From assembly GCA_017549565.1 (NCBI GenBank), contig JAFYUI010000007.1, positions 1 to 64,000 of the forward strand: DNA of 64,000 nucleotides. The letters are read 5' to 3'. Below, piece after piece: positions 6,543 through 24,560 of this stretch (within the stretch, counting starts at the first letter, position 1; each line of letters starts with the position of its first letter). This stretch comes from Clostridia bacterium. GTDB taxonomy: Bacteria > Bacillota > Clostridia > Oscillospirales > Acutalibacteraceae. The position numbers were made by a program, and so were the translations under genes. The notes below the pieces were generated by a model. That model saw only the letters and a list, made by a program, of their open reading frames with translations. It made no database searches and was not told the DNA's origin.

Positions 6543-6544
6543 AA

Positions 6545-7206: not shown

Positions 7207-7208
7207 AA

Positions 7209-8285: not shown

Positions 8286-8305
8286 AAATTTTTCTTTGTG
8301 AAAAT

Positions 8306-9336: not shown

Positions 9337-9337
9337 T

Positions 9338-9364: not shown

Positions 9365-9397
9365 TGTTTAAAGTAAATGACGAAGGGAGGGAACCAA

Positions 9398-9949
9398 ATG
9401 GACAAAAAAGTTAGAACGGAGATTTATGGTAGAATTGTTAGTGTTGCATTATGGAATGACGTAGTCAATATGACTCTTGAAACATATAGCGGATTGGCCA
9501 ACCTCAAGATTCCGTATAGATGTTGTAATGTGAAAAAGTGGTATAAGAACGATTTTGTAAAAATAAGCGGAACCGTAAACAAATATGAAATGAAAAATTC
9601 TATTTACGAAATTATATTTACTAATTGTATATTGGAAAAACAATTTGACATTAAAACTGAAAAGTCAAAATTGGATTATAATGCTGATTTTTCGTTTTTG
9701 GGGCATATTGTATCAATTGAATTGGTTGAAGAAAATTTTTATAAAGTATTCTTTAAAACTGCTGAAGATGAAGAAATATATACAATATATTTTGAAAAAT
9801 CAATTTTTGAATCTGCAATGGAAGAATTTGATTTCAGAAGACTTATATATCTTTACGGAAAATTTTCCGCTGTTAGTTATAAGAAATATTCATATAACGA
9901 AGCTGTAAGTGAGATTAGATATTACGGCGTGGGAATGAAATACTTGTAA
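9398..9949 (+). CDS. Hypothetical protein with two OB-like repeats
   Basis: A 183-residue protein from ATG 9398 after GGGAGG (9385-9390). The sequence shows an internal repeat: EIYGRIVSVALWNDVVNMTLET ... FVKISGTVNKYE, and FLGHIVSIELVEENFYKVFFKT ... LIYLYGKFSAVS. Each half has the short-strand pattern and glycine positions of an OB fold, suggesting a single-strand nucleic-acid binding protein. That would suit its place directly after the replication initiator. I do not recognise a named family; the fold is inferred. Confidence 0.5.
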   Translation: MDKKVRTEIYGRIVSVALWNDVVNMTLETYSGLANLKIPYRCCNVKKWYKNDFVKISGTVNKYEMKNSIYEIIFTNCILEKQFDIKTEKSKLDYNADFSFLGHIVSIELVEENFYKVFFKTAEDEEIYTIYFEKSIFESAMEEFDFRRLIYLYGKFSAVSYKKYSYNEAVSEIRYYGVGMKYL

Positions 9950-9956
9950 TTATTAT

Positions 9957-9983
9957 TTGTAACACATATTATTCTGTCATACT
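9957..9983 (+). promoter_or_regulatory. Recurrent element promoter-like motif, copy b
   Basis: TTGTAA (9957-9962), 15 bp, CATACT (9978-9983), with CTGT directly before. Lies just after the OB-like gene and before a 250-bp non-coding leader. Confidence 0.45.
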
Positions 9984-10083
9984 ATAGTTATAACCGGATA
10001 ATACGATTGGAGCTGTCACCAATTGATTTGGTTATATTAACTTCCTTTTTTTATCTTTTTATGTCTTTTTTGTTGATTTAGGG

Positions 10084-10120
10084 AAAAGTGGGCTTGCTTC
10101 GGCAGGTCCATTTTTCTTTT
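10084..10120 (+). terminator. Terminator with TTCG tetraloop
   Basis: TGGGCTTGC (10089-10097), loop TTCG, GCAGGTCCA (10102-10110), then TTTTTCTTTT. It may end a short transcript begun at the motif near 9983, giving an untranslated RNA of about 120 nt. Confidence 0.75.
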
Positions 10121-10123
10121 CGG

Positions 10124-10150
10124 TTGAATGTAGTAGTGGTAATTCATACT
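10124..10150 (+). promoter_or_regulatory. Recurrent element promoter-like motif, copy c
   Basis: TTGAAT (10124-10129), 15 bp, CATACT (10145-10150) then TATATT. It lies directly after a terminator and before the small ORF at 10233, as expected of a promoter. Confidence 0.5.
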
Positions 10151-10232
10151 TATATTGCAGAATATTAAACACGATAAGGAGTGAAATTGCTACAATGTGT
10201 TACTGCAATAATTATATAAAGGAGAATAAAAA

Positions 10233-10379
10233 TTGATTTTAATTGATGGCATAAAAATTGAATCGTTCACACCGAGAATGGCGTACATAAACAATACGTC
10301 GGTGTGTGATGATAAATACAAATATTTAGAAAGATCAATTATGAGAAGCAAGGTGGGTAGAGATGGTCACAATTATTGA
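10233..10379 (+). CDS. Small ORF, 48 aa, hypothetical
   Basis: TTG start at 10233, 8 nt after AAAGGAG. The product begins MILIDGIKIESFTPRM and ends VGRDGHNY. There is no recognisable domain. It ends 18 nt before the next gene. A separate 12-codon frame (MVTIIELARTYL, from ATG 10363) bridges to the TTG start of the next gene, its stop overlapping that start, which could serve translational coupling. Expression is supported only by the ribosome site. Confidence 0.4.
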   Translation: MILIDGIKIESFTPRMAYINNTSVCDDKYKYLERSIMRSKVGRDGHNY

Positions 10380-10397
10380 ATTGGCGAGAACATACCT

Positions 10398-11156
10398 TTG
10401 AAAAACGAGTATATGGAATTTGCACGAAATACCTTGATTGTTGCTAATCAAAATGGTGAGTGGAAATTTATTGCAATTATAAAAGGTAAGGTTTTTGATG
10501 TCACAAGTAATGTGGAAAATGAAACTATTAAGATGTTATTGGCTACACATCAGTTTAGTGTTATTGATGATTATGGTAAAGAGTTGTTAATACATAATTA
10601 TGATGAACTAATTGAGTTTTATAATGCTGTTAACAGCTTTAGAAAGAACTTTAACTTTTGTTTGGATAGGTATCATAGTTATATGGATGAACTACATAAA
10701 TTGCGTAAATACCGTACCGAGACAGCAAATTGTTTTATCAATGATGATTATAACCGTTTGGTTGATTTGCTTGATGAATTGGTTAAGGAAACATCGGAGG
10801 TACTTTATCAATTGTATAATGCCGAAGAAGCAAAAATTTTAGAAAAGTATATTCATAAGCCGAGCGAAGATGAAAAATTATGCGTGCTATTCGGCTTATA
10901 CATTGCGGTTCTTAGAGCATATATATGTAACTATGATTATGAGAACAGTAGTATGACATTGGATGAGAAAATAAGGAATAAGTTTCAAAAAGAGTTTAAT
11001 TATTTTATTGCGGATCGTGATTGCATAATTGAGAAGTATGCAAAATATTTTGCTTTGAAGCAAATTGAGATTGATGAGATAAGGCAGTTGCTTAAAGATG
11101 CCGGAATTGATGGAGGAGAGTGGATTACTGAAGAAGCAGAATTAACATTGTTGTAG
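10398..11156 (+). CDS. Hypothetical helical protein
   Basis: A 252-residue protein; the nominal start is TTG 10398, with ATG 10413 (MEFARN) as an alternative, since neither has a strong ribosome site. The chain opens with a short beta-like segment (TLIVANQNGEWKFIAIIKGKVFDVTS) and is otherwise acidic and alpha-helical (IEFYNAVNSFRKNFNFCLDRYHSYMDELHKL; LVDLLDELVKETSEVLYQLYNAEEAKILEKYI). It ends IDGGEWITEEAELTLL. No transmembrane segment or catalytic motif is seen. Homologues are likely in other mobile elements, but I cannot name a family. Confidence 0.6.
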   Translation: MKNEYMEFARNTLIVANQNGEWKFIAIIKGKVFDVTSNVENETIKMLLATHQFSVIDDYGKELLIHNYDELIEFYNAVNSFRKNFNFCLDRYHSYMDELHKLRKYRTETANCFINDDYNRLVDLLDELVKETSEVLYQLYNAEEAKILEKYIHKPSEDEKLCVLFGLYIAVLRAYICNYDYENSSMTLDEKIRNKFQKEFNYFIADRDCIIEKYAKYFALKQIEIDEIRQLLKDAGIDGGEWITEEAELTLL

Positions 11157-11160
11157 CAAA

Positions 11161-11212
11161 AAATTAACGGTTATTTATGCTCTTGTAAAGTGCATAAATA
11201 ACCAGTTAATTT
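11161..11212. repeat. Long perfect inverted repeat 1
   Basis: GGTTATTTATGC (11169-11180) and GCATAAATAACC (11192-11203) pair perfectly; the outer AAATTAAC and GTTAATTT extend the stem to about 20 bp with one bulged A. No T-run follows, so it is not an ordinary terminator. It may be a replication, transfer or regulatory site. Confidence 0.75.
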
Positions 11213-11257
11213 GGGGAGAAACGGAGTGTCTAACCGTTAGCCCGTCTACGCTTGACG

Positions 11258-11293
11258 TTTACTTATGGGAGAAAATTATCTCCCATAAGTAAA
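11258..11293. repeat. Long perfect inverted repeat 2
   Basis: TTTACTTATGGGAGA (11258-11272) and TCTCCCATAAGTAAA (11279-11293) form a 15-bp perfect stem with a 6-nt loop, again without a T-run. It lies 45 bp downstream of inverted repeat 1 and 31 bp upstream of the antitoxin promoter. Confidence 0.75.
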
Positions 11294-11323
11294 ATACTAA
11301 ATAGAGCCATTGACAGTTTAGCG

Positions 11324-11352
11324 TTGACTTGTTATTTAAAAAGGTATATAAT
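11324..11352 (+). promoter_or_regulatory. Promoter of the Fic toxin-antitoxin operon
   Basis: TTGACT (11324-11329), 17-bp spacer, TATAAT (11347-11352), about 18 bp before the antitoxin ATG. The start point would lie so close to the gene that the leader is very short. Confidence 0.8.
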
Positions 11353-11370
11353 ATATGCGAGGTGAAAATT

Positions 11371-11535
11371 ATGTCAATTGACAAAGCCATTCAAAATGCT
11401 GCTGCTTCTGTTGAAATGGAAGGATATGTTATAGATGAACAGTGCAAAAACTGGTGTCATCAGTTTTTGAATAGTGAAATGTCTATGGAAGAATATATTT
11501 CACTTGTTAAACAACAAGCAGGAGTTATGGCATAA
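11371..11535 (+). CDS. VbhA-like antitoxin of Fic toxin
   Basis: A 54-residue protein from ATG 11371 after GAGGTG. It contains SVEMEG, matching the Fic-inhibitory motif (S/T)xxxE(G/N), whose Glu blocks ATP binding in the partner Fic domain, followed by helical segments (SMEEYISLVKQQAG) as in VbhA-type antitoxins. Its last base is the first base of the toxin gene (overlap TAATG). It is a class I Fic system with a separate inhibitor protein. Confidence 0.85.
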   Translation: MSIDKAIQNAAASVEMEGYVIDEQCKNWCHQFLNSEMSMEEYISLVKQQAGVMA

Positions 11536-12125
11536 TGGGATATAGTATTGATACAATCACTGAAGATTGTTATGAGGGAACGACCTGTTTAATTAATAAA
11601 TTTGATATTAAGGACGAAAAGCAATTAGCTACAATCGAAGCTAAGATAACCTTTGCTAAAATGTCGGCATTAGAAAGAGAACCTATTAAAGGTACTTTTG
11701 ATTTCGAACATTACAAAGACATACATCGCTATCTTTTTGGAGATATTTATGATTGGGCTGGAAGTATAAGAACAATCAATATATCTAAAAAAGGGACAAG
11801 ATTTGCAGAAGTGGATGAAATTGACGATCTAGCCACCGCTTGTTTTGAACGATTAAAAAAACAAAATTACTTTTGTAATCAGGATAAAAACAGTTTTATT
11901 GATGATATTGTTGATTTTTACTGTGTAACAAATATGCTTCATCCATTTCGTGAGGGTAATGGTAGAACGCAACGGGCCTTTTTATCGCAATTGATAAGGA
12001 ATGCAGGATATAATATTGATTTTTCGGATATTGACACAGATTCGTTAATGGCTGCAACAATTCATTCAGCTAATGGTGTGACTGATTATCTTAAAGAAAT
12101 TTTTGAAAACGCAATTTATAAGTAA
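11535..12125 (+). CDS. fic: Fic/DOC-family toxin (adenylyltransferase)
   Basis: A 196-residue protein with the full Fic motif HPFREGNGR near residue 136 (catalytic His, phosphate-binding GNGR) and the upstream segment FDFEHYKDIHRYLFGDIYDWAGSIRTINISKKGTRFA, typical of Fic proteins. Fic enzymes transfer AMP from ATP to hydroxyl groups of target proteins such as DNA gyrase. The immediately preceding antitoxin with its SVEMEG motif indicates a VbhT/VbhA-like module, probably an element-maintenance or defence system. It ends at a strong terminator. Confidence 0.9.
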   Translation: MGYSIDTITEDCYEGTTCLINKFDIKDEKQLATIEAKITFAKMSALEREPIKGTFDFEHYKDIHRYLFGDIYDWAGSIRTINISKKGTRFAEVDEIDDLATACFERLKKQNYFCNQDKNSFIDDIVDFYCVTNMLHPFREGNGRTQRAFLSQLIRNAGYNIDFSDIDTDSLMAATIHSANGVTDYLKEIFENAIYK

Positions 12126-12126
12126 T

Positions 12127-12157
12127 TAACCGCCTTTATAAGGCGGTTTTTATTTTA
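12127..12157 (+). terminator. Terminator after fic
   Basis: AACCGCCTT, short loop, AAGGCGGTT, then TTTATTTTAT. Confidence 0.85.
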
Positions 12158-12199
12158 TATATGAAGCATTTCTATCATACTTGTTTTGGGGTGATTGTA

Positions 12200-13141
12200 A
12201 TGAAAAAGAAAAAATCCAAAACAAGGGTTATTCGTGATGAATGCAACGAGATACTCAACCAAATACCGCATAATTTAACAAAATCTCAGTATAAAAATAT
12301 TGTTAGGCGTTATGTGGAATATTGTCGTCGTGAGTTTGACGTGCAAAATTTTGAAGATTGTAAAGGGTATATACAAACGTACTGTGACTATCTTCAAAAT
12401 CAGGGTTATACGACCAGCACAATACACACATACATTAGCGGAGTATGTAAATGCTGGGATGTGCCATTAAAACTTATTGAGAAGCCGATAAGACACATTA
12501 GTGAGTATACTAAGGGGAGAAGTAAATATCATGATAAATACCGTACTGCAACTGATTTGGCGGCGGAACGGTGGAAAGATTTGGTTCAATTTCAGATGCT
12601 TACGGGAATCCGTAGAGCGGAATTATCGCGTTTGACGGGTAAGGATTTAGTTTTTAAGGATGGAATATGGAATATTTTTGTCCGTAATGGAAAAGGCGGC
12701 AAGGATAGTTATATATATGTAAGCGATATTGATAAAGTTAAACCATATTTTGAAGGTAAAGGACCTAATGAGAAAATTTTTGACGAGGCGCTTTTCAAAA
12801 ATGATTTAAATTTGCATTGGCTGCGCGCAAAAAATGCGCAGCTGGTTTATAAACTGTTTGAGGACAGGATTAAAAAATATCCAACATACCGTGACGAACT
12901 TGAAAAGTTGGTTCGTAAGCGTTGGGCAGAAGGCAATAAAGATAAAAAGACAGGAAAGCCCAAACCATTTCCTGAAGATAGTATAAATGGGAAATATGTC
13001 CTTCGTGGACTTAACAGAAAGTTCGCTATTAAAAACAAATTGCCTTTTGTTTATGATAAGTTGATTTTAAAAGCCGTATCAGTTTTATGTTTGTCGCATT
13101 ATAGGACTGATATTACAATTTTGTACATGCTTTATATTTAG
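12200..13141 (+). CDS. Tyrosine recombinase/integrase
   Basis: A 313-residue protein; ATG 12200 follows GGGGTGAT, so the upstream in-frame ATG at 12161 is not used. The N-terminal SAM-like arm domain (residues 10-100; KSQYKNIVRRYVEYCRREF, YTTSTIHTYISGV) is followed by a catalytic domain with Arg I in TGIRRAELSRLTG (about residue 135), GKGGKDSYIYV, and the C-terminal box LSHYRTDITILYM with the likely nucleophile Tyr. The canonical HxxR box is replaced by LRGLNRKFA, as in a clostridial integrase subgroup. It may resolve or integrate the element; the element ends beside a serine recombinase instead, so this enzyme may belong to an older nested element. Confidence 0.85.
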   Translation: MKKKKSKTRVIRDECNEILNQIPHNLTKSQYKNIVRRYVEYCRREFDVQNFEDCKGYIQTYCDYLQNQGYTTSTIHTYISGVCKCWDVPLKLIEKPIRHISEYTKGRSKYHDKYRTATDLAAERWKDLVQFQMLTGIRRAELSRLTGKDLVFKDGIWNIFVRNGKGGKDSYIYVSDIDKVKPYFEGKGPNEKIFDEALFKNDLNLHWLRAKNAQLVYKLFEDRIKKYPTYRDELEKLVRKRWAEGNKDKKTGKPKPFPEDSINGKYVLRGLNRKFAIKNKLPFVYDKLILKAVSVLCLSHYRTDITILYMLYI

Positions 13142-13226
13142 TGATTATACACAAATTTTGGCTCAAAAAAAGTGTAATAGAAATTTGGTTAATTTTCCGA
13201 ATTTTCAAAAACCTCTTAAAAAACTC

Positions 13227-13255
13227 TTCACAAAAAATTAGTGGTATGTTATAAT
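13227..13255 (+). promoter_or_regulatory. Strong promoter of a candidate small RNA
   Basis: TTCACA (13227-13232), 17 bp, TATAAT (13250-13255) with an extended TGT before the -10. No protein gene follows within 420 bp. Confidence 0.75.
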
Positions 13256-13261
13256 GAAATT

Positions 13262-13412
13262 AGAAGGTTAAGAAAACCTTGAAAAACAAAATAAAATCAT
13301 ATAGAGATTAATTGTGTGGCTTTGAATAACAAAGCAAAGAAATTTTTTAGAGTTTGTGTACAAGGGATAAGTGTGCGCAAACGCTTAAAACACACAATTA
13401 ATCTCTTTTTTT
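13262..13412 (+). ncRNA. Candidate element-encoded small RNA ending in a long hairpin
   Basis: From the predicted start, AAGGTT/AACCTT gives a small first hairpin. Then AGAGATTAATTGTGTG (13303-13318) pairs perfectly with CACACAATTAATCTCT (13391-13406), followed by TTTTTTT, which would act as a terminator. The 72-nt apical region contains GCTTTG-AATAA-CAAAGC (13319-13335) and smaller helices. A promoter, a structured body and a terminator in 190 bp without an ORF support a real transcript of about 150 nt. I cannot assign it to a known RNA family. Confidence 0.55.
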
Positions 13413-13427
13413 ATCCCAAAACTGCAC

Positions 13428-13580
13428 CTTGACAATTGAATCATGCGACGAGAAGGCGATACTTTGTGCGATGAACCACTCGGGAGAGTGTATAGCCAAA
13501 GCAAATACACCTTGGTGAGAGTCCAGGGTAGGAACATACTTAAGGCGCATGCCACTAGCGAATCTTATGAAAGGAGTAAA
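13428..13580 (+). ncRNA. Candidate structured RNA or cis-regulatory leader
   Basis: This GC-richer island in AT-rich DNA can fold with CATGCG (13442-13447) pairing to CGCATG (13546-13551), CTTTG (13462-13466) to CAAAG (13497-13501), and a GNRA-capped hairpin CACTC-GGGA-GAGTG (13477-13490). The only ORF across it (from 13443) has no ribosome site and an odd composition. A purine-rich AAAGGAG follows at 13570. TGCGAC at its start slightly recalls group II intron 5' ends, but no intron protein or domain V is seen. The family is unknown. Confidence 0.4.
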
Positions 13581-13598
13581 AATTACTTATGCAAAAAA

Positions 13599-13625
13599 TT
13601 GTATGATGTACCTATCTGTCATACT
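13599..13625 (+). promoter_or_regulatory. Recurrent element promoter-like motif, copy d
   Basis: TTGTAT (13599-13604), 15 bp, CATACT (13620-13625) then TATTTT, flanked by TATCTGT. Upstream of the first FRGY-family gene. Confidence 0.55.
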
Positions 13626-13677
13626 TATTTTAGAAAAAACCACGATATGAGTAAATTAATTATAAGGAGTTTTAATA

Positions 13678-13980
13678 ATGAAATGTAAAATTAACAAAAC
13701 AAAATATGAGATTCAGGAATTGATGGTATACCAAGATGATTTAATTGAGGAAAAAAGAACGTGTTTTAGCACGTTGAAAGAGGCCGAAAAGTTCTATGAT
13801 ATGTTAGAAGATAATATGCTTAACGAAATTAATTCAACCGGCAGCTTTCGTGGTTATGACCAAAACGATTTTTGCATTGGCGAAGCAAATAATACATTGA
13901 ATTGTATGAAGTTGGTTATAATATGCGACAAAGCCCAAGAAGAGCCAATATATACATTAGGATTAAAAAAAGAAAATTAA
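13678..13980 (+). CDS. Small FRGY-motif protein 1, hypothetical
   Basis: A 100-residue protein from ATG 13678, 7 nt after AAGGAG. The layout is N-terminal strands (YEIQELMVYQDDLIEEKRTCF), a helix (STLKEAEKFYDMLEDNML), then GSFRGYDQNDFCIGEA and a final strand segment (MKLVIICDK). The same order recurs in the proteins at 13997 and 14666, so the three are diverged paralogues. Small, acidic and soluble, with no catalytic motif seen. Comparable small genes in mobile elements often encode anti-defence or regulatory factors, but nothing here proves that. Confidence 0.65.
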   Translation: MKCKINKTKYEIQELMVYQDDLIEEKRTCFSTLKEAEKFYDMLEDNMLNEINSTGSFRGYDQNDFCIGEANNTLNCMKLVIICDKAQEEPIYTLGLKKEN

Positions 13981-13996
13981 TAAAGGAGTTATAAAT

Positions 13997-14314
13997 ATGA
14001 AATTAGAAAAAATTGAAACAGCATGTGTTATTTCTGAAAAAACAGAACCTAAAAACGGAAATACGGAATCAAAAACCACATTCATTCAAAATAAAGATAA
14101 GGCGATTGAGTTTTATAAGAAACGACTTGAAGAAATAAGGGCCGAATTTGATAACGGCGATTATTTTAGAGGCTATCCCAAAAACGAATTGGTTGTTTTA
14201 GATGGCGTAGATGTTATGTTTGCTGTGCTTCACGAAAAAGAGAAAAAGATGGCATACGTAATACGATATGCGGAACAAAATGAAGATGGATATACACCGC
14301 TCAGAATATTTTAA
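13997..14314 (+). CDS. Small FRGY-motif protein 2, hypothetical
   Basis: A 105-residue protein from ATG 13997 after AAGGAG, 16 nt after the previous stop and so in the same operon. It shares the pattern TTFIQNKDKAIEFYKKRLEEI, then DYFRGYPKNELVVLDG, then a closing strand (KKMAYVIRYAEQ). The helix and the FRGY turn align with the protein at 13678 despite low overall identity. Function unknown. Confidence 0.65.
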   Translation: MKLEKIETACVISEKTEPKNGNTESKTTFIQNKDKAIEFYKKRLEEIRAEFDNGDYFRGYPKNELVVLDGVDVMFAVLHEKEKKMAYVIRYAEQNEDGYTPLRIF

Positions 14315-14337
14315 AAACGAAAAGAAAGGAAATGTGA

Positions 14338-14544
14338 ATGAAAACAAACGCTGATGCGCGAAATTATGAAACTACCCAAGAGATTGTAAACGATGCATTA
14401 ATGATTTTGTGGGCGTGGCAACCATGTCCAATAAGTAAAGTAACCAATAATATGAATACATATTTAAGCAGCTGGTACCGAGAGTATCAGTTGAACCAAG
14501 AGGAATTAAAGGAAATTGAAAATGCCGTTAAAGAATGGTTTTAA
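14338..14544 (+). CDS. Small hypothetical protein
   Basis: A 68-residue protein from ATG 14338 after GAAAGGAAATGTG. It is helical, with aromatic residues (MILWAWQPCPISKV, YLSSWYREYQ) and an acidic C-terminal helix (LNQEELKEIENAVKEWF). It sits in the same operon as the two FRGY proteins, 23 nt after the previous stop. No family recognised. Confidence 0.55.
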   Translation: MKTNADARNYETTQEIVNDALMILWAWQPCPISKVTNNMNTYLSSWYREYQLNQEELKEIENAVKEWF

Positions 14545-14561
14545 TATAGATACACTTTAAC

Positions 14562-14588
14562 TTGAAAACAACACTTATCTATCATACT
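14562..14588 (+). promoter_or_regulatory. Recurrent element promoter-like motif, copy e
   Basis: TTGAAA (14562-14567), 15 bp, CATACT (14583-14588) then TATTAT, flanked by TATCTAT. Upstream of the third FRGY-family gene. Confidence 0.55.
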
Positions 14589-14665
14589 TATTATAAACAC
14601 ACACGATAGGAGTTTTTAATATTATTACCTTGCGCCCAGGGCAAACAGGGCAGAAAGACAAAATA

Positions 14666-15004
14666 ATGGAAAATATGAAATTAGTGCCAACTGAACATAA
14701 CTTTAACTATCAAGGATTTGAGTTTATAGTATATAAACTTGTGGAATCCAAAAATGGGGATATGTCAAAAACTACATATACGTTTAATACATTTGGTGAA
14801 GCTAAAAAGAAATTTAACCAATGTGCATCACTTGAAAAACAAGCGCTTGACACAAGAATGGTTTACAAAGGTTATAGCACAGAAAATTTAGCCGCTGTAA
14901 CCGCTGAAAAAAGCGAACAAATTTGCGAATCTTTTGGGATATACGATTATGAAACCGAAAATATGGTCGTTCAAATTTTATTGTTAGAAAACCCAACAAT
15001 GTAA
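14666..15004 (+). CDS. Small FRGY/YKGY-motif protein 3, hypothetical
   Basis: A 112-residue protein if started at ATG 14666 (MENMKLVPTEH); ATG 14675 is also possible. The best ribosome site, AGGAG at 14608-14612, is followed by TTTTTAAT and then ATT at 14621, where the sister gene at 13678 has ATG after the same AGGAGTTTTAAT. The start may therefore have mutated, or ATT 14621 or TTG 14630 may be used. The body repeats the paralogue pattern: FEFIVYKLVES, TTYTFNTFGEAKKKFNQ, MVYKGYSTENLAAVTAEK. Function unknown. Confidence 0.6.
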   Translation: MENMKLVPTEHNFNYQGFEFIVYKLVESKNGDMSKTTYTFNTFGEAKKKFNQCASLEKQALDTRMVYKGYSTENLAAVTAEKSEQICESFGIYDYETENMVVQILLLENPTM

Positions 15005-15191
15005 TGTCGAGAGAAACGAGTAGATTAATGTTTAAATATCGGTTTTTTATATGAGGGCGGAATAAGAAAATACAGTATTTTTGAATATCAGAAAAAGTTT
15101 TTATTTAAATGAGGGGATATTGTTCTATTTTGAGAATTGTTTTAATAAAATTAAATATAAAGAAATTTAAGATACAAGGGGTGTGTGGTGT

Positions 15192-15341
15192 GTGAAACAA
15201 AAATTGAAATATAGTTTTAATAATCCAAACACACCCCAAGCAACCGCAGATTACATATTGAAAATATTTTTAGAATCAAATGTTCAAAAGGCGAATATGG
15301 CCATTAATGAGGCCTTAAAACTAAATAATGAAAATATATAG
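15192..15341 (+). CDS. Small helical protein upstream of the serine recombinase
   Basis: A 49-residue product from GTG 15192 after AAGGGGTGTG. It reads MKQKLKYSFNNPNTPQATAD, then one amphipathic helix (YILKIFLESNVQKANMAINEA). The size and position just before a large serine recombinase are typical of small accessory ORFs in clostridial mobile elements. It is closed by its own terminator. Role unknown; a recombination helper is possible. Confidence 0.5.
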   Translation: MKQKLKYSFNNPNTPQATADYILKIFLESNVQKANMAINEALKLNNENI

Positions 15342-15368
15342 AAGGTGGCATTATCCACCTTCTTTTTT
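15341..15368 (+). terminator. Terminator before the serine recombinase
   Basis: GAAGGTGG (15341-15348), loop CATTAT, CCACCTTC (15355-15362), then TTTTTTG. Confidence 0.9.
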
Positions 15369-15434
15369 GTTAATTTAATTATTCGACGGTAAGCTGTTTT
15401 GTAACCCTTCTTTTGCTTAAAGATATGTTTTTAA

Positions 15435-15463
15435 TTGACGATTGAAATTGTTTATTATATAAT
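15435..15463 (+). promoter_or_regulatory. Promoter of the serine recombinase
   Basis: TTGACG (15435-15440), 17-bp spacer, TATAAT (15458-15463), about 40 bp before the gene. It is a vegetative-type promoter, with no sign here of a mother-cell sigma site. Confidence 0.75.
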
Positions 15464-15504
15464 AGTAGTAACGCTAATTATTGATGTAACAGGGGCGAAT
15501 TTTG

Positions 15505-17040
15505 ATGAATGTAGCAGCATATTGTAGAGTCTCCACTGAAAAAGAAGACCAATTGAATTCTTTGGAAGCTCAAAAGAACTTTTTTTATGAATATACTAAA
15601 CGTACCGGTGACAATCTTGTGCGCTTGTATGCGGATGAGGGATTGTCTGGAACCAAAATTAAAAATAGAAAAGAATTTTTGCGGATGATGGCAGATGCTG
15701 AATTGGGCTATTTTGATATCGTAATAGTAAAAGATATATCGCGCTTTGCTCGAAATACGGTTGACTTACTTGAAAATGTTCGAAAGCTTAAAACCTTAGG
15801 TATTGAAACACAATTTTTGACCGCTAATATGACAAGTATGGGTAATAGCGAATTCGTTCTTACGATTTTTGGTGCATTAGCACAAGAAGAAAGTGCAAAC
15901 ACTTCAAAAAGAGTTAAATTTGGTAAAAAACTAAATGCCGAAAAAGGAAGGGTTCCTAACTTAGTGTTTGGGTATGACAAAACTATAGGAGATTATTTCA
16001 ACTTAACAGTTAATAAAACCGAAGCTGAAGTTGTAAGAAAAATTTTCAGTTGGTATGTTGACGATGGTTATGGTGCTGCCAAAATTTCTAATATACTTAA
16101 CGAACAAAAAATAAAAACCAAACGTAATTGTAAGTGGAGTCAAAATGCAATTTGCAGAATACTTACAAATGAACTTTATGTTGGGAAAATTATCAATGGT
16201 AAAGAAGAAGTTGTAGATTTTCTTACGGGAAGGCGGGCTGAATGCGACGAAAATAAATGGATGGTGGTTGAAAAACCCGAGCTTAAAATAATAGAATCGG
16301 AATTGTTTGAGGCTGCCCGAGAAATAATGCACGCTCGATGCGAAAAATTCAATTCAAATAAAACACGCCACAGTAATAAGCATTTGTTTTCTACACTTAT
16401 AAAATGTAAAGATTGTGGATGGTCTTATCGCCGAAGTGTGCGCACATATAAAAACACTTATGTAAGATGGGTGTGCTCTGGTCATAATGGCAAAGGTGCG
16501 GATAATTGCCCAAATGCTATAACTGTTAATGAAGAAGAGTTAATTCAAGTATTGCAGAATTATTTTGCTGAACTTTTAGCACAAAAAAAGAATGTTGTAA
16601 AATATGTTATAGATGAGTTTCGGAAGGTATATAAAGCTAAGGATGAAAATATCGCTTATGAAAAGGAACTGAAAAATCAGCTTGCAAAAATGCAAAAGTT
16701 CCGACAAAGATATATGGATATGTATGCCGATGATTTAATTTCAAGAGATGAATTAAATGACAAAATAGGTGGTAGCAAAAAAGAGATTGAGAGATTAGAA
16801 AATGAATTGAAAATGGTGTCTTTTCACATAACAAAAAGCGAACAATTAGAACGTATTTTAAATGATACATTTAAGGAAATATCAGATGTTGCTGATGTTG
16901 GACAAATGACCAATGCTCAGCTTAAAAAGATAGTTCAAAAAATTGAAGTTGATAAGGAAGGCAACGTTGAGATATATTTGCGATTATTAGGCGAACTTGG
17001 TTTGAATTCTACCGTTCTAATTAGTGACAACGGTACATAA
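15505..17040 (+). CDS. Large serine recombinase (site-specific integrase/excisionase)
   Basis: A 511-residue protein from ATG 15505 (TTG 15502 is adjacent and in frame) after AGGGGCG. The resolvase domain (1-145) has the nucleophile Ser in YCRVSTEKEDQ near residue 10, LYADEGLSGTKIKNR and IVIVKDISRFARN. The Recombinase domain (about 165-265) is followed by a zinc ribbon with CKDCGWSYR and CSGHNGKGADNC, then a coiled coil (KELKNQLAKMQKFRQRYMDMY). Such enzymes cut attP and attB with 2-bp overlaps and rejoin them. Its stop codon overlaps the junction with spoIIID, as in elements whose integrase lies at one end and defines the attachment site. Confidence 0.95.
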   Translation: MNVAAYCRVSTEKEDQLNSLEAQKNFFYEYTKRTGDNLVRLYADEGLSGTKIKNRKEFLRMMADAELGYFDIVIVKDISRFARNTVDLLENVRKLKTLGIETQFLTANMTSMGNSEFVLTIFGALAQEESANTSKRVKFGKKLNAEKGRVPNLVFGYDKTIGDYFNLTVNKTEAEVVRKIFSWYVDDGYGAAKISNILNEQKIKTKRNCKWSQNAICRILTNELYVGKIINGKEEVVDFLTGRRAECDENKWMVVEKPELKIIESELFEAAREIMHARCEKFNSNKTRHSNKHLFSTLIKCKDCGWSYRRSVRTYKNTYVRWVCSGHNGKGADNCPNAITVNEEELIQVLQNYFAELLAQKKNVVKYVIDEFRKVYKAKDENIAYEKELKNQLAKMQKFRQRYMDMYADDLISRDELNDKIGGSKKEIERLENELKMVSFHITKSEQLERILNDTFKEISDVADVGQMTNAQLKKIVQKIEVDKEGNVEIYLRLLGELGLNSTVLISDNGT

Positions 17041-17046
17041 GGATGT
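17028..17046 (+). other. Element-chromosome junction (attR-like site) within spoIIID
   Basis: The recombinase stop (TAA 17038-17040) overlaps ACGGTACATAAGGATGT, from which the spoIIID frame reads on in another frame (VHKDV). The junction must lie at or just left of GTACAT. No second copy of GTACATAAGG was seen in the window, so the other junction is outside it or lost. Confidence 0.75.
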
Positions 17047-17170
17047 CACACAGCGCCTTCGTTATGATAACCCACAGCTTTATAAAGAGGTAAAAGCTGT
17101 GCTTGAAAAAAATAAAAATGAACGGCATATACGGGGCGGTATGGCAACCAAACGGAAGTATAAGGGATAA
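17033..17170 (+). pseudogene. spoIIID: 3' half of spoIIID, interrupted by the mobile element
   Basis: The frame from 17033 encodes 45 residues: VHKDVTQRLRYDNPQLYKEV, then KAVLEKNKNERHIRGGMATK and RKYKG, stop at 17168-17170. This matches the C-terminal half of SpoIIID, the mother-cell sporulation regulator, whose known sequence continues from the recognition helix SKSTVHKD into a rich HxRGGxATKxKYK end. The N-terminal half with the first helices is absent, and the break falls inside the DNA-recognition helix. Immediately upstream is the end of a serine recombinase gene, so insertion by that enzyme is the simplest explanation. As it stands the fragment has no start. Precise excision would restore the gene if the 5' half survives at the other end. 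Confidence 0.85.
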
Positions 17171-18705: not shown

Positions 18706-18985
18706 AAAAATGTATAATAGCTTTGACGAAGACGGTTTTGAATGTCTGCTTTTAGAGAGTTGGCGGTTGGTGCAAGCTGACAGTAAGTGTTCAAAAATAC
18801 CTATCACTTCCGAGCTGAAGGGCTGAAACTTTTTGCGTGTAGGTCTTTCCGTGATTGCTGCGTAAAGGCATAGGAATTGTTAGATTCCAAGAGTGGCAGT
18901 TTTAAAACTGCAATTTGAGTGGTACCGCGAATGTTTTACAACATCCGTCTCAAAGATTGAGATGGGTGTTTTTATTTTTTAAAGA
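18706..18985 (+). promoter_or_regulatory. T-box riboswitch, specifier read as Ile (ATC)
   Basis: Stem I contains the distal-loop segment GGTTGGTGCAAGCTGACAG, and the specifier position ATC (18803-18805) precedes ACTTCCGAGC. The conserved T-box TGGTACCGCG lies at 18920-18929. The terminator is a 12-bp stem, ACATCCGTCTCA (18941-18952) with TGAGATGGGTGT (18958-18969), and a T-run. TGGT pairs with the ACCA end of an A73 tRNA, as tRNA-Ile has. Uncharged tRNA-Ile would favour the antiterminator and turn on the downstream acyl-CoA synthetase. The ATC call rests on alignment to the GAGC box; TAT (Tyr), one base to the left, is the alternative. Confidence 0.9.
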
Positions 18986-18995
18986 GGTGTTAAAA

Positions 18996-21266
18996 ATGAC
19001 AACCAATACTGCAAAAGAACAACTTATGGAGATTGCTTCCAGAATTCGTGAAATGCGCGAAATTATGGGCTGGTCTGTTGCTGAAATGGCAGAAAAAACC
19101 GAAGTAAGTGAAGAACAGTATATTTCTTACGAATCGGCCGAGGCGGATATTCCGTTTAGCTTTATTCATAAGTGCGCTTTACAGTTTGGCGTTGAAATGA
19201 CCGAATTTTTAGAGGGTCGCAACAGCGCACGATTAAAGTCTTATACTGTTACCCGCAAGGGTCAAGGTCTTCAAACCGCAAAGGAAGACGGTATTGACAT
19301 TAAAAATTTGGCGCCTAAATTCCGTGATAAAATAGCCGAGCCATATTGGGTAAGGTATGAATATTCCGCTGCACAGCAAAACAAACCAATTCATCTTGCT
19401 ACCCACTCGGGTCAGGAATTCGACCTTGTTATGAGCGGTAGCTTAAAGGTGCAAATTGGCGACCATATTGAAATTTTGCACGAAGGCGACAGCATTTATT
19501 ACAACTCCTCAACCCCTCACGGTATGATAGCGGTTGATGGTAAGGACTGCGTATTCTGTGCGGTTGTTTTACCCGGTGAAGACACCAAGGAGGAGGTTGT
19601 AAGAAAAAGCATTGCCTCCACCAAAAAGACCGAAAAATTGGTTTGCGAAAAGTTTGTAAAGACAGTTGAAGATGAAAACGGTGCTTTGCAGAAAATTGAC
19701 TTTAAAAATACTGACACCTTTAATTTTGGCTTTGATATTGTTGACGGCATTGCTAATAAATATCCTGAAAAGCTTGCAATGCTTCACCTTGATAAAAACA
19801 AGGTTGAACGCCGTTTCACCTTTAATGACATTAAACGCGCATCAAATCAGGTTGCAAACTATTTTACTTCCCTTGGCATCAAAAAAGGCGACAAGGTTAT
19901 GCTTGTTTTAAAACGCCATTATCAGTTCTGGTTTTGTATGGTTGCGCTTCATAAACTTGGTGCGGTTGCAATTCCTGCAACAAATCAGCTTAAAGAGCAC
20001 GACTTTGAATACCGCTTTAATGCCGCAGGTGTAAAGGCACTTGTTTGCACTGCCGACGGCGACACCGCCGAAATTGCCGAAGCAGCTGCTAAAAAATGCG
20101 ACAGCGTTGAAAAGCTTATAATGGTTGGTGGCAACCGTGATGGTTGGCAGGATTTTGATAAGGAATTCCCACTTTTTAGTGCACATTATTATAGGGAAGA
20201 AAATTCATCCTGCGGTGAAGATAATGCGCTTATGTTCTTTACCTCGGGCACAACGGGTAATCCGAAAATGGCGGCACACAAGCATACCTATGCGTTGGGC
20301 CATTTTGTAACTGCTAAATATTGGCACTGCTGCGAGCGTGACGGTTTGCATTTAACCATTTCCGACACCGGTTGGGGCAAATCACTTTGGGGTAAATTAT
20401 ACGGTCAATGGCTTTGCGAGGGCGCAGTTTTTGTTTATGACTTCGACCGCTTTGATGCCGATGATATTTTACCAATGTTCGAAAAATATCAAATCACCAC
20501 TTTCTGTGCGCCCCCAACAATGCTTCGTATGCTCATTAAGGGCGACCTTTCAAAGTATGATTTATCTTCAATTCACCATATGACCACCGCGGGCGAGGCA
20601 TTAAACCCCGAGGTTTATAAGCAATTTGAAATGGCAACAGGCCTTCAAATTATGGAGGGCTTTGGCCAAACCGAAACCACCCTTACCATTGCAAATCTTT
20701 GCGGCACTGTGCCTAAGGTTGGCGCTATGGGTAAGGCATCACCTCAGTATGATGTTGACATTGTTGACCCCGACGGCAATTCTGTCCCCACAGGTGAGGT
20801 TGGTGAAATTGTTATTCACACCGACAAGGCAGTTCCTTGTGGCCTTTTCAAGGAATATTACCTTGATGATGAAAAAACAAACGACGCTTGGTACGACGGT
20901 ATGTATCACACAGGTGATACCGCTTGGCGTGATGAGGACGGATATTTCTGGTATGTAAGCCGTATCGATGATGTTATTAAATCATCGGGCTACCGCATTG
21001 GACCGTTCGAAATTGAAAGCGTTATTATGGAACTTCCCTATGTTTTGGAATGTGGTGTTTCTGCCGCCCCCGATGAAATTCGCGGTCAGGTTGTAAAGGC
21101 AAGCATTGTGCTTACCAAGGGCACCGAGCCAACCGAGGAGCTTAAAAAAGAAATTCAAAATTATGTTAAAACCCACACCGCACCTTATAAATATCCTCGT
21201 GTGGTTGTCTTCCGCGATGAATTACCCAAAACAATAAGCGGTAAAATTCAGCGTAATAAACTTTAA
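18996..21266 (+). CDS. XRE-HTH/cupin/acyl-CoA synthetase fusion (Ile T-box unit)
   Basis: A 756-residue protein from ATG 18996 after AGAGGTG; the longer frame would translate the T-box. Residues 1-65 are an XRE HTH (IREMREIMGWSVAEMAEKTEVSEEQYISYE). About 95-175 are a cupin (HSGQEFDLVMSGSLKVQIGDHIEILHEGDSIYYN, STPHGMIAV). From about 225 on is a complete ANL adenylating enzyme: TSGTTGNPKM, GFGQTE, YHTGDTAWRDEDGYFWYVSRIDD, and the catalytic Lys in PKTISGKIQ. It would activate a carboxylic acid to acyl-CoA. The Ile T-box suggests 2-methylbutyrate as substrate, feeding the downstream oxidoreductase. The HTH-cupin part resembles PuuR-like regulators, so the enzyme may bind DNA or use the domain as a sensor. 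The substrate is inference. Confidence 0.85.
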   Translation: MTTNTAKEQLMEIASRIREMREIMGWSVAEMAEKTEVSEEQYISYESAEADIPFSFIHKCALQFGVEMTEFLEGRNSARLKSYTVTRKGQGLQTAKEDGIDIKNLAPKFRDKIAEPYWVRYEYSAAQQNKPIHLATHSGQEFDLVMSGSLKVQIGDHIEILHEGDSIYYNSSTPHGMIAVDGKDCVFCAVVLPGEDTKEEVVRKSIASTKKTEKLVCEKFVKTVEDENGALQKIDFKNTDTFNFGFDIVDGIANKYPEKLAMLHLDKNKVERRFTFNDIKRASNQVANYFTSLGIKKGDKVMLVLKRHYQFWFCMVALHKLGAVAIPATNQLKEHDFEYRFNAAGVKALVCTADGDTAEIAEAAAKKCDSVEKLIMVGGNRDGWQDFDKEFPLFSAHYYREENSSCGEDNALMFFTSGTTGNPKMAAHKHTYALGHFVTAKYWHCCERDGLHLTISDTGWGKSLWGKLYGQWLCEGAVFVYDFDRFDADDILPMFEKYQITTFCAPPTMLRMLIKGDLSKYDLSSIHHMTTAGEALNPEVYKQFEMATGLQIMEGFGQTETTLTIANLCGTVPKVGAMGKASPQYDVDIVDPDGNSVPTGEVGEIVIHTDKAVPCGLFKEYYLDDEKTNDAWYDGMYHTGDTAWRDEDGYFWYVSRIDDVIKSSGYRIGPFEIESVIMELPYVLECGVSAAPDEIRGQVVKASIVLTKGTEPTEELKKEIQNYVKTHTAPYKYPRVVVFRDELPKTISGKIQRNKL

Positions 21267-21281
21267 TACGGGGACTTTTAA

Positions 21282-21920
21282 ATGAAAAACATAGGTAATG
21301 TTTTTATTTTAGGTGATAGTTATTCAACCTTTCAGGGTTATATACCTGGCGGTTATTTTACTTGGTATTTTAGGCCTACACAAACCGATACCGATGTTTT
21401 AGAGGTAACACAAACCTGGTGGCATCAGCTTTTGGAAAAAACAAAATCAAATTTGGTGCTAAATTGCAGTTTTTCGGGCTCTACTATTTGTTATACAGAG
21501 CGTGAAGAAGACGGCTATAAGGGGACATCATTTTGTCATCGACTTTCAAAGCTTATAAGCGATGGTTTTTTCAAAGAAAATAAAATTGATACATTCTTTA
21601 TTTTCGGTGGCACAAACGACAGTTGGCTGGGCGTGCCGCTTGGCGAAATTATGTACGGTGAAAAAACTGAGCAAGATTTATATTCGCTTTTTCCCGCTTT
21701 TTGCCATTTAATTGAAAAGATTAAAGAAAATTGCAAAAATGCCCGAATTATAACGATTGTTAATACCGACCTAAAACCCGAAATCAGCGAAATGATGAAC
21801 GAGGTTTCAAATCATTATAATACCGAGGTTATAAACCTTTCGGGCATCGTAAAACAAAGCGGTCACCCTAATGTTAAAGGTATGAACCAAATTTATAACC
21901 AAATAATTGAAAAACTTTAA
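21282..21920 (+). CDS. SGNH/GDSL-type hydrolase
   Basis: A 212-residue protein from ATG 21282, 15 nt after the synthetase stop with a weak GGGGA site, so co-transcribed under the Ile T-box. Block I is ILGDSYSTF (nucleophile Ser), block III GGTND, and HPNVKG supplies the catalytic His with its preceding hydrophobic strand. SGNH enzymes hydrolyse esters or thioesters. There is no signal peptide, so it is cytoplasmic. An acyl-ester or acyl-CoA hydrolase that frees or recycles short branched acids would fit, but the substrate is unknown. Confidence 0.8.
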   Translation: MKNIGNVFILGDSYSTFQGYIPGGYFTWYFRPTQTDTDVLEVTQTWWHQLLEKTKSNLVLNCSFSGSTICYTEREEDGYKGTSFCHRLSKLISDGFFKENKIDTFFIFGGTNDSWLGVPLGEIMYGEKTEQDLYSLFPAFCHLIEKIKENCKNARIITIVNTDLKPEISEMMNEVSNHYNTEVINLSGIVKQSGHPNVKGMNQIYNQIIEKL

Positions 21921-21926
21921 TATTTA

Positions 21927-21955
21927 TTGACATTTTTTTAAAGTTGTGATATAAT
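21927..21955 (+). promoter_or_regulatory. Promoter of the Val T-box operon
   Basis: TTGACA (21927-21932), 17-bp spacer, TATAAT (21950-21955). Confidence 0.85.
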
Positions 21956-21959
21956 CACC

Positions 21960-22240
21960 ATATATTTTTAGAGGCGTTGACGAAGAGGACGCAAAATAAT
22001 ACATATCAGAGAAGTGACGGTTTGGTGCAAGTCATTTGTGTGTGTTTTGTGTTTGTAGCTTTTGAGCCAAAGGGAAGAAAGTTTTAAACGATTAGACCCC
22101 TTTCGTGATTGCTGCGTAAAGGCATAGGAATTGTTAGATTCCAAGAGTGGCAGTTTTATACTGCAATTTGAGTGGTACCGCGGGTATGAAATTTTTTACT
22201 CGTCTCAAAGTCATAACTTTGGGGCGGGTATTTTTACTTT
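21960..22240 (+). promoter_or_regulatory. T-box riboswitch, specifier read as Val (GTA)
   Basis: The specifier position GTA (22055-22057) precedes GCTTTTGAGC, the same offset as ATC in the first T-box. T-box TGGTACCGCG is at 22173-22182. The terminator stem is TACTCGTCTCAAAG (22197-22210) with CTTTGGGGCGGGTA (22217-22230) and TTTTTA. The region from CGTGATTGCTGCGTAAAGG to the T-box is almost identical to the first riboswitch while stem I has diverged, consistent with duplication and a change of amino-acid specificity. TGGT fits tRNA-Val with A73. Confidence 0.9.
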
Positions 22241-22268
22241 TCGCCCAAAACGGAGGAATAATAGAAAA

Positions 22269-24560
22269 ATGCAAGGTCTTGATTCTAAAATTAAAGAAAT
22301 AGCGGGTCGTATTAAAGAACTGCGCGAAATTATGGGTATTTCTATTGCCGAAATGGCAAAGAAAACCGCTGTTAGCGAAGAGGAATATCTCCTTTGCGAA
22401 AACGGTGAAAGTGATTTGCACTTTGCCTTTATTTACCGTTGCGCAAATGCTTTTAATGTTGACGTTACTGATATTATCGAAGGTTATAGCCCACGCCTTA
22501 AATCTTATACCGTAACCCGACGCGGCGAAGGTCAACGCATTGAAAAGGCACACGGTATGACCTATTATAACTTGGCGCCTGCTTTTAAAAACCGTATTGC
22601 CGAACCACTTTATGTTAAAAGCGTTTACAGTGAAGAAGCGCAAAATAAACCTATTGAAGTTACCACCCACTCAGGTCAGGAATGTGACCTTATTATTAGC
22701 GGTCACTTAAAGGTTCAGGTTGGCGAACATGCCGAAATTTTGGGCCCGGGCGACAGTATTTATTTTGACAGTAACACCCCGCACGGTATGATAGCGGTTG
22801 GCGGTGAAGATTGTATATTCTATGCAATCGTTTTAAACCCTACGGGTGAGCCTATCCCCGAATTAACCGAAGATATTAAACCAATTGTAAATGTTCCCAC
22901 CACCAAGCGCACACGCAAGGATAAAAGTGAGCGCATTTACAGTAATTACATAGATATTGTTGAAAATGAAAACGGCACACCAACAAGCATAACATTTAAA
23001 AACACCGAAAAGTTCAATTTTGGTTTTGACTTGGTGGATGAACTTGCAAAACGCGAACCCGAAAAACTTGCTTTAATGCACATTTCAAGGGATGGCACTG
23101 AACGTGCATTGACATTTACCGACATTAAAAAAGAATCAAACCGCAGCGCAAACTATTTTAAATCGCTTGGCATTAAAAAGGGCGACAAGGTAATGCTTGT
23201 ACTTAAACGCCATTATCAGTTCTGGTTTGCAATGATTGGTCTAAATAAACTTGGCGCAATTGCTATTCCTGCAACTAATCAGTTGTTGGAAAAAGACTTT
23301 GAATATCGCTTTAAATCGGCAGGTGTTAATACAATTATCTGTACAGCTGACGGCGATACTGCTCATCAGGTTGAATTGGCAGCCGAAAAGTGCGACTGCC
23401 TTAAAAACAAGCTTATTGTTAACGGCACACGCGACGGTTGGCGCAATTTTGATGAAGAATATAAACTCTTCTCAACCCACTTTGAACGCACCGATGACAC
23501 CGCTTGCGGCGATGATTTAATGCTTATGTACTTCACATCGGGCACAAGCGGTTATCCCAAAATTGCAGCGCATAATTATAAATACCCATTGGGTCATTTC
23601 CACACCGCAAAATATTGGCACGATGTTGACCCCGAAGGTCTTCACTTTACCATTTCCGACACAGGTTGGGCAAAGGCGATGTGGGGTAAGCTTTACGGCC
23701 AATGGCTTGCTGAAGCCGCAATTTTTGTTTACGACTTTGACCGTTTTGATGCGGCTGATATTTTGCCAATGTTTGCAAAATACAAAATCACTACCTTCTG
23801 TGCACCACCCACAATGCTTAGAATGCTTGTTAAGCAAGATATTTCACAATATGATTTATCATCGGTTAAACATATGACAACCGCGGGTGAAGCACTGAAT
23901 CCCGAAGTTTACCGCCAATTTGAAAAGGTAACAGGTCTTCAAATTCTTGAGGGCTTTGGTCAAACCGAAAGCACAATGATTATCGGCAACCTTATCGGTG
24001 CGCCGCATAAAATTGGCTCTATGGGTAAACCCGCACCAATTTATAATGTTTCTATCGTTGACCCTGACGGCAACCCTGTTGACGACGGTGAAACAGGTGA
24101 AATTGTTATTGATATTTCGGGTGGTCGTCCCTGCGGCCTTGCGGTTGGCTATTATGGCGACGAAGAAAAGACCAAGGAAGTTTGGGGCGAAAAATATTAC
24201 CACACAGGCGACACCGCTTGGCGTGACGAAGACGGCTTCTATTGGTATGTCGGCCGTATTGATGACGTTATTAAGTCATCGGGCTATCGTATTGGACCAT
24301 TTGAAATTGAAAGCGTTATTATGGAACTTCCATACGTTTTAGAATGTGGTGTTTCGGCCGCGCCCGACGAGGTTAGAGGTCAGGTTGTTAAGGCAAGCAT
24401 CGTGCTTGTAAACGGTACCGAGCCGACTGAAGAGCTTAAAAAAGAAATTCAAAACTATGTTAAGGAAAGAACCGCACCTTATAAATACCCGCGTATTGTG
24501 GTGTTTAAGGATAGTTTGCCAAAAACTACAAGCGGTAAAATTCAAAGAAATAAATTATGA
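22269..24560 (+). CDS. XRE-HTH/cupin/acyl-CoA synthetase fusion (Val T-box unit)
   Basis: A 763-residue paralogue of the protein at 18996, starting at ATG 22269 after GGAGG. Domains in order: XRE HTH (IKELREIMGISIAEMAKKTAVSEEEYLLCE), cupin (HSGQECDLIISGHLKVQVGEHAEILGPGDSIYF), ANL synthetase with TSGTSGYPKI, GFGQTE, YHTGDTAWRDEDGFYWYVGRIDD and PKTTSGKIQ. The Val T-box suggests isobutyrate as substrate, giving isobutyryl-CoA for conversion to 2-oxoisovalerate. Its ATGA stop-start overlap with the next gene shows tight coupling to the oxidoreductase operon. Substrate choice is inferred from the riboswitch, not from active-site residues. Confidence 0.85.
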   Translation: MQGLDSKIKEIAGRIKELREIMGISIAEMAKKTAVSEEEYLLCENGESDLHFAFIYRCANAFNVDVTDIIEGYSPRLKSYTVTRRGEGQRIEKAHGMTYYNLAPAFKNRIAEPLYVKSVYSEEAQNKPIEVTTHSGQECDLIISGHLKVQVGEHAEILGPGDSIYFDSNTPHGMIAVGGEDCIFYAIVLNPTGEPIPELTEDIKPIVNVPTTKRTRKDKSERIYSNYIDIVENENGTPTSITFKNTEKFNFGFDLVDELAKREPEKLALMHISRDGTERALTFTDIKKESNRSANYFKSLGIKKGDKVMLVLKRHYQFWFAMIGLNKLGAIAIPATNQLLEKDFEYRFKSAGVNTIICTADGDTAHQVELAAEKCDCLKNKLIVNGTRDGWRNFDEEYKLFSTHFERTDDTACGDDLMLMYFTSGTSGYPKIAAHNYKYPLGHFHTAKYWHDVDPEGLHFTISDTGWAKAMWGKLYGQWLAEAAIFVYDFDRFDAADILPMFAKYKITTFCAPPTMLRMLVKQDISQYDLSSVKHMTTAGEALNPEVYRQFEKVTGLQILEGFGQTESTMIIGNLIGAPHKIGSMGKPAPIYNVSIVDPDGNPVDDGETGEIVIDISGGRPCGLAVGYYGDEEKTKEVWGEKYYHTGDTAWRDEDGFYWYVGRIDDVIKSSGYRIGPFEIESVIMELPYVLECGVSAAPDEVRGQVVKASIVLVNGTEPTEELKKEIQNYVKERTAPYKYPRIVVFKDSLPKTTSGKIQRNKL

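Follow-up and report, generated by a model that had tools for sequence, protein, structure and literature searches.

The window analysed here, 64,000 nucleotides long, covers the start of contig C2 (its first 64 kb) in a draft genome of 1.49 Mb (37 contigs, 96% complete). On its forward strand, an open reading frame at 15502-17040 with its first ATG at 15505 encodes a large serine recombinase of 511 amino acids (15505..17040), which matched the Resolvase, Recombinase and Zn-ribbon families (PF00239, PF07508 and PF13408) above cut-off. The 3' part of spoIIID follows on the same strand (17036..17170), reading HKDVTQRL...KRKYKG up to a stop codon and matching positions 34-80 of the PF12116 model with an E value of 3.5e-20; the translation of 17027-17170 is TTVHKDVTQRLRYDNPQLYKEVKAVLEKNKNERHIRGGMATKRKYKG, followed by the stop. 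The last codon and the stop codon of the recombinase gene (ACA TAA, 17035-17040) overlap the SpoIIID codons CAT AAG (17036-17041). The preliminary description of this DNA had read the 17033-17170 frame as the C-terminal half of SpoIIID and placed its beginning within the end of the recombinase gene, and the profile match and the overlapping codons confirmed both its frame and its coordinates.

A profile search of the whole genome with PF12116 gave exactly two matches, each above the curated cut-off: the 3' part on C2 and a 5' half on the minus strand of contig C17 (C17:15386-15496, model positions 6-42, E value 5.5e-12). The C17 half reads ...VFKISKSTVH and loses family similarity directly afterwards, so that it is split at the same point as the window fragment. 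A 5' half had been predicted at the other end of the element, and a 5' half was indeed present in this genome; its end had been expected near TCAACGGTACAT and reads AGCACGGTGCAT. No intact spoIIID, a possibility that the preliminary description had left to be checked, was found by the PF12116 search in this 96%-complete draft. The gene is split within SKSTVHKD, which we take to be part of the DNA-recognition helix of SpoIIID. These residues are identical in SpoIIID of B. subtilis (PDB 2L0K).

Gene order in one relative made it most likely, on balance, that both halves derive from a single interrupted locus. The intact spoIIID of this relative, G038, is flanked on one side by a homologue of a C17 gene (84% identity, C17 ~25.7-27.0 kb) and on the other by homologues of the window genes starting at 18915 and 22131 (83%). 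These two window genes (18915..24560, forward strand) form the host flank and follow the intact spoIIID in both G038 and G013, with tblastn identities of 83-86% for the first and 80-83% for the second; G013 shares the downstream neighbours of the window (86% identity for the first gene). Their product name, acyl-CoA-synthetase-like, comes from reading the sequence without a family search, and the tandem proteins (18915-21266 and 22131-24560) each read as having an N-terminal Cro/C1-type DNA-binding part and a cupin-like part. Ten relatives were fetched for this comparison and six were tested for both sides, among which only G038 bridges the two contigs. In G055 the downstream-side genes match C17 at ~33.8-39 kb instead, which means that gene order around spoIIID varies; we counted this, the bridging by a single relative and the separation of the two contigs against the reading favoured below. 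A physical join of C17 and C2 was tried and rejected: the ends of both contigs lie in shared repeat DNA beside RHS-type genes, with scattered shared 25-mers and no unique overlap, and the contigs are separate in the assembly.

The right-hand part of the spoIIID-intervening element occupies 1..17037 of the window on the forward strand, C2 starting at window position 1, and the left-hand part would be C17:1 to ~15384 of the same genome, C17 bearing the 5' half and the attL arm. Its cargo in the window, all on the forward strand, comprises an RHS/YD-repeat protein with a DUF4329 tail (1807..3696; a similar ORF lies at 24-1481), a phage-type holin and an N-acetylmuramoyl-L-alanine amidase (6919..8285, PF16079 and PF01510), a Rep3-type replication initiator (8470..9336, PF01051 and PF21205), a Fic/DOC family protein (11535..12125, PF02661) and a tyrosine-recombinase-like protein (12161..13141) whose match to PF00589 is weak, its 27.5 bits barely exceeding the cut-off of 27.1. 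At C17 6701-8320 (L003) the element encodes another serine recombinase, only distantly related (23% identity), and it may be composite because it carries this gene together with the tyrosine-recombinase-like one. Pairs of a Cro/C1-type regulator and an IrrE-like peptidase are found among the regulators of mobile elements, and one such pair was observed near the left end on C17 (L003:14246-15299). Among the 20 of the element's proteins that were scanned, holin and amidase were found and no capsid, tail or packaging family was listed. Holin, amidase and Rep3 initiator, being phage- or plasmid-type genes, speak for an alternative that we consider unlikely, namely that ordinary prophages or islands dock in the conserved spoIIID, leaving the gene inactivated and their carriers sporulating poorly or not at all, with excision serving only transfer or lysis. 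The large size of some elements points the same way.

The split gene recurs widely among relatives. PF12116 matched in 247 of the 296 relatives searched, and re-searching 30 of these with low scores or double matches revealed both halves and no intact copy in 15, the others having a single half, a fragment or a full-length match that was weaker. A further 39 genomes stand behind named recombinase loci; 30 of them have both halves and no detected intact gene, four have the 3' half alone, one has part of the 5' half alone, two have just an intact gene, one has an intact gene with the 3' half and one has an intact gene with both halves. With the window's own genome, 46 genomes (1 + 15 + 30) hold both halves without a detected intact copy, which are not 46 independent insertions, as some are close kin and most are drafts. 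Wherever the halves share a contig (24/24 genomes, G589 included) they lie on one strand and in the order expected of an interrupted gene, 2.5-125 kb apart, the extremes being G581 (2.5 kb) and G590, Marasmitruncus massiliensis (125 kb). Two single-contig genomes hold both halves co-linearly, at 3.0 kb (G076) and 6.7 kb (G187). In a 37-contig draft with the halves on different contigs, one might suspect that assembly had fused a recombinase gene to a spoIIID fragment, but the same split site and recombinase clade in dozens of genomes, including G076 and G187, make such an artefact barely credible. Comparison among these genomes shows a family of site-specific elements that interrupts spoIIID at a single point. 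The intact copies in the carriers G589 and G568 were counted against our reading. The one in G568 was considered as an excised form and rejected, since its sequence differs from the 3' half of that genome and points to another gene copy or contamination. On contig C49 of G589, the intact spoIIID lies ~1 kb upstream of a second, split copy (9215-9454, 10420-10542 and 28928-29068).

Of the 19 genomes in which a 3' half was initially listed, 17, the window's own included, contained a homologue of the window recombinase (40-82% identity) in the stretch fetched, and the remaining two, G140 and G042, have contigs that start at the junction or ~100 bases ahead of it. The homologue adjoins the 3' half in 16 of the 17 and lies near the 5' half in G246. 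Among the best 80 of 587 loci from named genomes, the 3' half of spoIIID was found downstream of the recombinase in 36 of the 42 with at least 46% identity to it, against 1 of the 38 below that value; 33 of these 36 halves lie within 140 bases of the recombinase and three (L106, L124 and L127) at 1-2.4 kb. As for the six misses, the recombinases of L093 and L109 are inserted elsewhere in genomes with an intact spoIIID, which we counted against our reading; that of L128 lies inside the 125 kb element, that of L129 adjoins another gene, L135 is cut by a contig end and the match of L138 covers the first 274 residues only. The 66% identical recombinase of L109 (~5485-5900) was seen beside a frame of collagen-like GPxGPx repeats. 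On the recombinase tree, the target labels changed five times, compared with 12.1 in shuffles, with bootstrap support unsettled. By comparison, a clade of recombinases accompanies the spoIIID target. The tree also groups G061, of the window's own genus, with G193, of another family, at 100/99, and such grouping across host families indicates horizontal movement, an exchange that would also suit prophages docking in spoIIID.

To locate the crossover, the junctions were anchored away from the site, which succeeded for 45 of the 47 pairs tried (G565 and G586 stayed unanchored). The dinucleotide CA was the sole stretch identical between attL and attR in 45/45 pairs; neighbouring positions agreed in 3 to 44. 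It sits in the histidine codon where STVH meets KD. In the window, attR (17000..17041, forward strand) consists of the arm ACCGTTCTAATTAGTGACAACGGTA, the predicted crossover CA at 17036-17037 and then TAAGGAT of spoIIID. When the reading frame was ignored, the longest word common to both junctions had the same SpoIIID codon offset in 34/45 pairs, and the other 11 words were of 5-7 bases. Taken by themselves, the 5' halves of G035 and G054 end in STVQ; rejoining supplies the base of the 3' half that turns this into STVH, a switch that fits crossover at CA. Twenty-three joined proteins were open and of full length, the joins being anchored on the His/Gln codon so that the frame follows from the method, and they scored 112-157 bits compared with 133-167 for the 19 intact proteins that built the SpoIIID model. 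By this comparison, the element ends can restore spoIIID. The element arms form an imperfect inverted repeat with the majority sequence AAACCGTTCTAATTCGTGACAACCGTA-CA-TACGGATGTAACAAAATGGAACGGTTT. Palindromy of the arms was 17.7/30 in own pairs, barely above the 16.3/30 of mixed pairs, so the inverted repeat is a feature of the family and not a proof of each pairing.

The recombinase also has a close relative in phage DNA. The viral contig L246 (62 kb, of which 21.5 kb were read) encodes a 71% identical recombinase with an uninserted site of attP form at the end of its gene and a small gene before it; there is no spoIIID half, and the neighbours read like phage tail and replication genes. L246 was the only viral locus with at least 46% identity among the best 80 of 586. 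The uninserted site counts towards our own reading, and a recombinase so closely related on a phage contig is one more point on the side of prophage docking. Reading across the joined element ends, we found a stop codon exactly 14 codons past the junction codon in 22 of 36 usable elements, whereas shuffling the outer bases gave such a stop in 1.8 elements on average and 8 at most; since the tail DNA is partly the attachment site itself, constraint on site and tail is only partly separable, and the related elements are not independent. Eight of the 44 pairs, in which the recombinase did not run into the junction, had been left out by an open-frame test or by hand. The tail that the recombinase would have in the free circle is most often of 15 residues and of the type TYxSNKxERFVWxxx, and the recombinase gene on the phage contig also has such a tail. 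In the integrated state the stop usually comes from spoIIID (CA followed by TAA), so integration removes the tail, and the DNA encoding it comes to lie at the opposite end of the element. Its retention there suggests that the free form is in use now or was so recently.

Just upstream of the window recombinase, on the same strand, lies a small ORF with a GTG start at 15183 or 15192 (15183..15341), a candidate recombination directionality factor of the family KxKLNYRFHNPNTxExTAxxILKIFIExNxxKVExAI. Of 61 regions scanned, sister recombinases included, 42 encode a member of this small-protein family (~50-65 aa) upstream of the recombinase; three of the 42 were seeds, the window copy among them. The small genes lie mostly on the recombinase strand and within a few hundred bases of the recombinase gene. 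The gene was not found in the other 19 of the 61 regions, two of which are shorter than 300 bp, and this we counted against our reading. The window ORF had no match in Pfam, NCBIfam or PHROG, and the small proteins of two relatives matched PHROG only at an E value of 0.12. Among the nine elements below 9 kb (G581, G076, G555, G570, G187, G588, G560, G246 and G562), the small gene is clear in six, weak in G246 and absent from G588 and G560.

The motif CATA is the -10 element of sigma-E and sigma-K promoters. Of 33 spoIIID-type same-strand cases, 29 had it in the stretch of 70 bases that precedes the small gene, compared with a mean of 8.7 and a maximum of 17 in dinucleotide shuffles. In 28 cases CATA lies 34-58 bases upstream of the start and is preceded at fixed spacing by an upstream block, with G at -22 (23/28), T at -18 (24/28), A at -17 (22/28) and A or T at -16 (28/28), for example GATATTTT or GTACTAT. 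A strict two-box sigma-E pattern was tried and found in only 7 of 33 cases (0.6 expected), and the CATA box with the aligned upstream block was used instead. Comparison with relatives places the candidate promoter of the window ORF at 15123..15149 (forward strand), where the block TTCTATTTT is followed by AATAAA in the place of CATA. The window's own box thus reads AATA, without the C of CATA, and was counted against our reading; this promoter may be weak or non-functional. The imperfect box speaks for a rival view in which excision is stochastic or stress-induced and free of developmental control, so that the population is mixed and sporulation is open only to cells that have lost the element, and the yin element of yabG was excised at all time points according to the available part of its description (PMC10747680). 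The CATA box in 29/33 cases argues against this, and the sole candidate for a mixed integrated and excised assembly, G591, was rejected, since the 55-base overlap of its contigs C12 and C13 only continues the split form; we regard uncontrolled excision as quite improbable.

Carriers keep other spore genes. SpoIVA was found in 20/21 genomes with a split spoIIID, 6/7 with one half, 13/13 with an intact gene and 6/12 without a spoIIID match, and SpoVAD in 19/21 (three of them partial matches), 7/7, 13/13 and 7/12, respectively. Spore genes can outlast damage to spoIIID, because 6 of the 12 genomes without a spoIIID match still have SpoIVA, a point that we counted against our reading. The 3' half had a pN/pS of 0.12 in seven split genomes of the window's genus, compared with 0.155 in 23 intact ones, both measured to the nearest intact relative, a ratio that gives no date for the insertions. 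Spore-gene retention and pN/pS fit a spoIIID that is still in use. The apparent constraint on the 3' halves and the spore genes kept by the hosts are hard to square with prophages that merely inactivate their docking site, and so are several elements of just 2.5-8 kb whose recombinase is still open and the mother-cell-like promoter box before the small gene in most relatives.

The preliminary description had proposed a spoIIID-intervening element, possibly with developmentally controlled excision, and the 5' half, the synteny, the recurrence in 46 genomes, the CA shared in 45/45 pairs and the candidate directionality-factor gene with a mother-cell-like box in relatives all support it. We consider it likely that a family of skin-type intervening elements splits spoIIID and is excised in the mother cell during sporulation. 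A mobile-element family, at least partly shared with temperate phages, enters spoIIID through its own large serine recombinase, the insertion and the split being shown by comparison, and the split gene would leave the growing cell without functional SpoIIID. After activation of sigma-E in the mother cell, the small element protein made just upstream would switch the recombinase to excision, and the output of SpoIIID, with it late mother-cell gene expression, would be gated by DNA rearrangement. That the element leaves in the mother cell, that the small protein drives this and that SpoIIID timing depends on it are our inferences. No excised junction or element circle was seen, which we counted against our reading.

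The skin elements in sigK (of B. subtilis, and of C. difficile with CD1231 and CD1234) likewise split a mother-cell regulatory gene with a large serine recombinase of their own. In the available part of the C. difficile report, the skin directionality factor CD1234 is a protein of 72 aa described as lacking similarity to known proteins and is under mother-cell control by sigma-E and SpoIIID (PMC5025042); the present small protein of ~50-65 aa is only a candidate, set beside CD1234 by description. The target of skin is sigK, whereas here it is spoIIID, whose action in C. difficile precedes the excision of skin. As an element within spoIIID cannot wait for SpoIIID, sigma-E alone is predicted to control the small gene. 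The gin element in gerE of B. cereus ATCC10987 splits the gene of a very small DNA-binding regulator, as here, and needs GirC and the factor GirX, as far as the accessible part of the source tells (PMC5595907). At 28.6 kb and with three serine recombinases, gin differs from the spoIIID element in target gene and host group. Excision of SP-beta uses a serine recombinase and a small factor. This phage rejoins the sporulation gene spsM by its excision (PMC4191935, part of the text); SP-beta is an active prophage there, and spsM is a gene of polysaccharide synthesis and not of a regulator like SpoIIID. The yin element in yabG of C. botulinum resembles the present one in its serine recombinase, its att sites with inverted repeats and its putative small directionality factor; its target gene is another, and the part available describes it from one strain (PMC10747680), whereas spoIIID halves occur here in 46 genomes. 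That 2023 paper names sigK, spsM, spoVFB and gerE as interrupted sporulation genes, in the part available, and adds yabG (PMC10747680). No report of a spoIIID-intervening element was found among the open-access papers searched, a set that leaves out most subscription papers. If our reading is confirmed, spoIIID, an early mother-cell regulator, would join the sporulation genes rejoined by DNA excision, and control by excision would appear widespread and repeatedly acquired in anaerobic Firmicutes, not peculiar to a few strains of Bacillus and Clostridium. Surveys of spore-forming potential by gene presence could miscount a split spoIIID. The family also yields a large set of serine recombinases with predicted attachment sites and a candidate family of directionality factors.

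Other genes also appear to be divided in these genomes. The sigK model gave two partial matches split near position 113 in G257 (C34), G246 (C1), G560 (C23) and G061 (C180/C196), where spoIIID is split too; other sigma factors also match this model and were left unsorted. With both genes apparently split, two regulators may need rejoining in one cell. We tentatively suggest, with rather less than even confidence, that sporulation in some of the gut Clostridia runs through programmed excision from spoIIID, that in these four genomes two excisions would be ordered with spoIIID first, and that the recombinase tail lost on integration could restrict the reaction to one direction until the small protein intervenes. 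In the window's own genome, spoVAD was observed in two parts, both on the minus strand (C22:1350-1967 and C3:37777-38160, model positions 1-206 and 201-328), and it is split in G016 and G254 as well. As spoVAD is a forespore gene, it would be an odd target for a skin-type element; we noticed no recombinase among the ORFs listed for the regions retrieved around it, which reach 1.3 kb on the inner side of one part. At L129, L131, L132, L136 and L137, sister recombinases (41-46% identity) abut an apparently 5'-truncated conserved gene (..LGQFSIIRLERDAQ..DYSIPTKEC..EDPCEMF..), one fragment of which had no match in Pfam or NCBIfam, and this gene is perhaps a second one interrupted by such elements.
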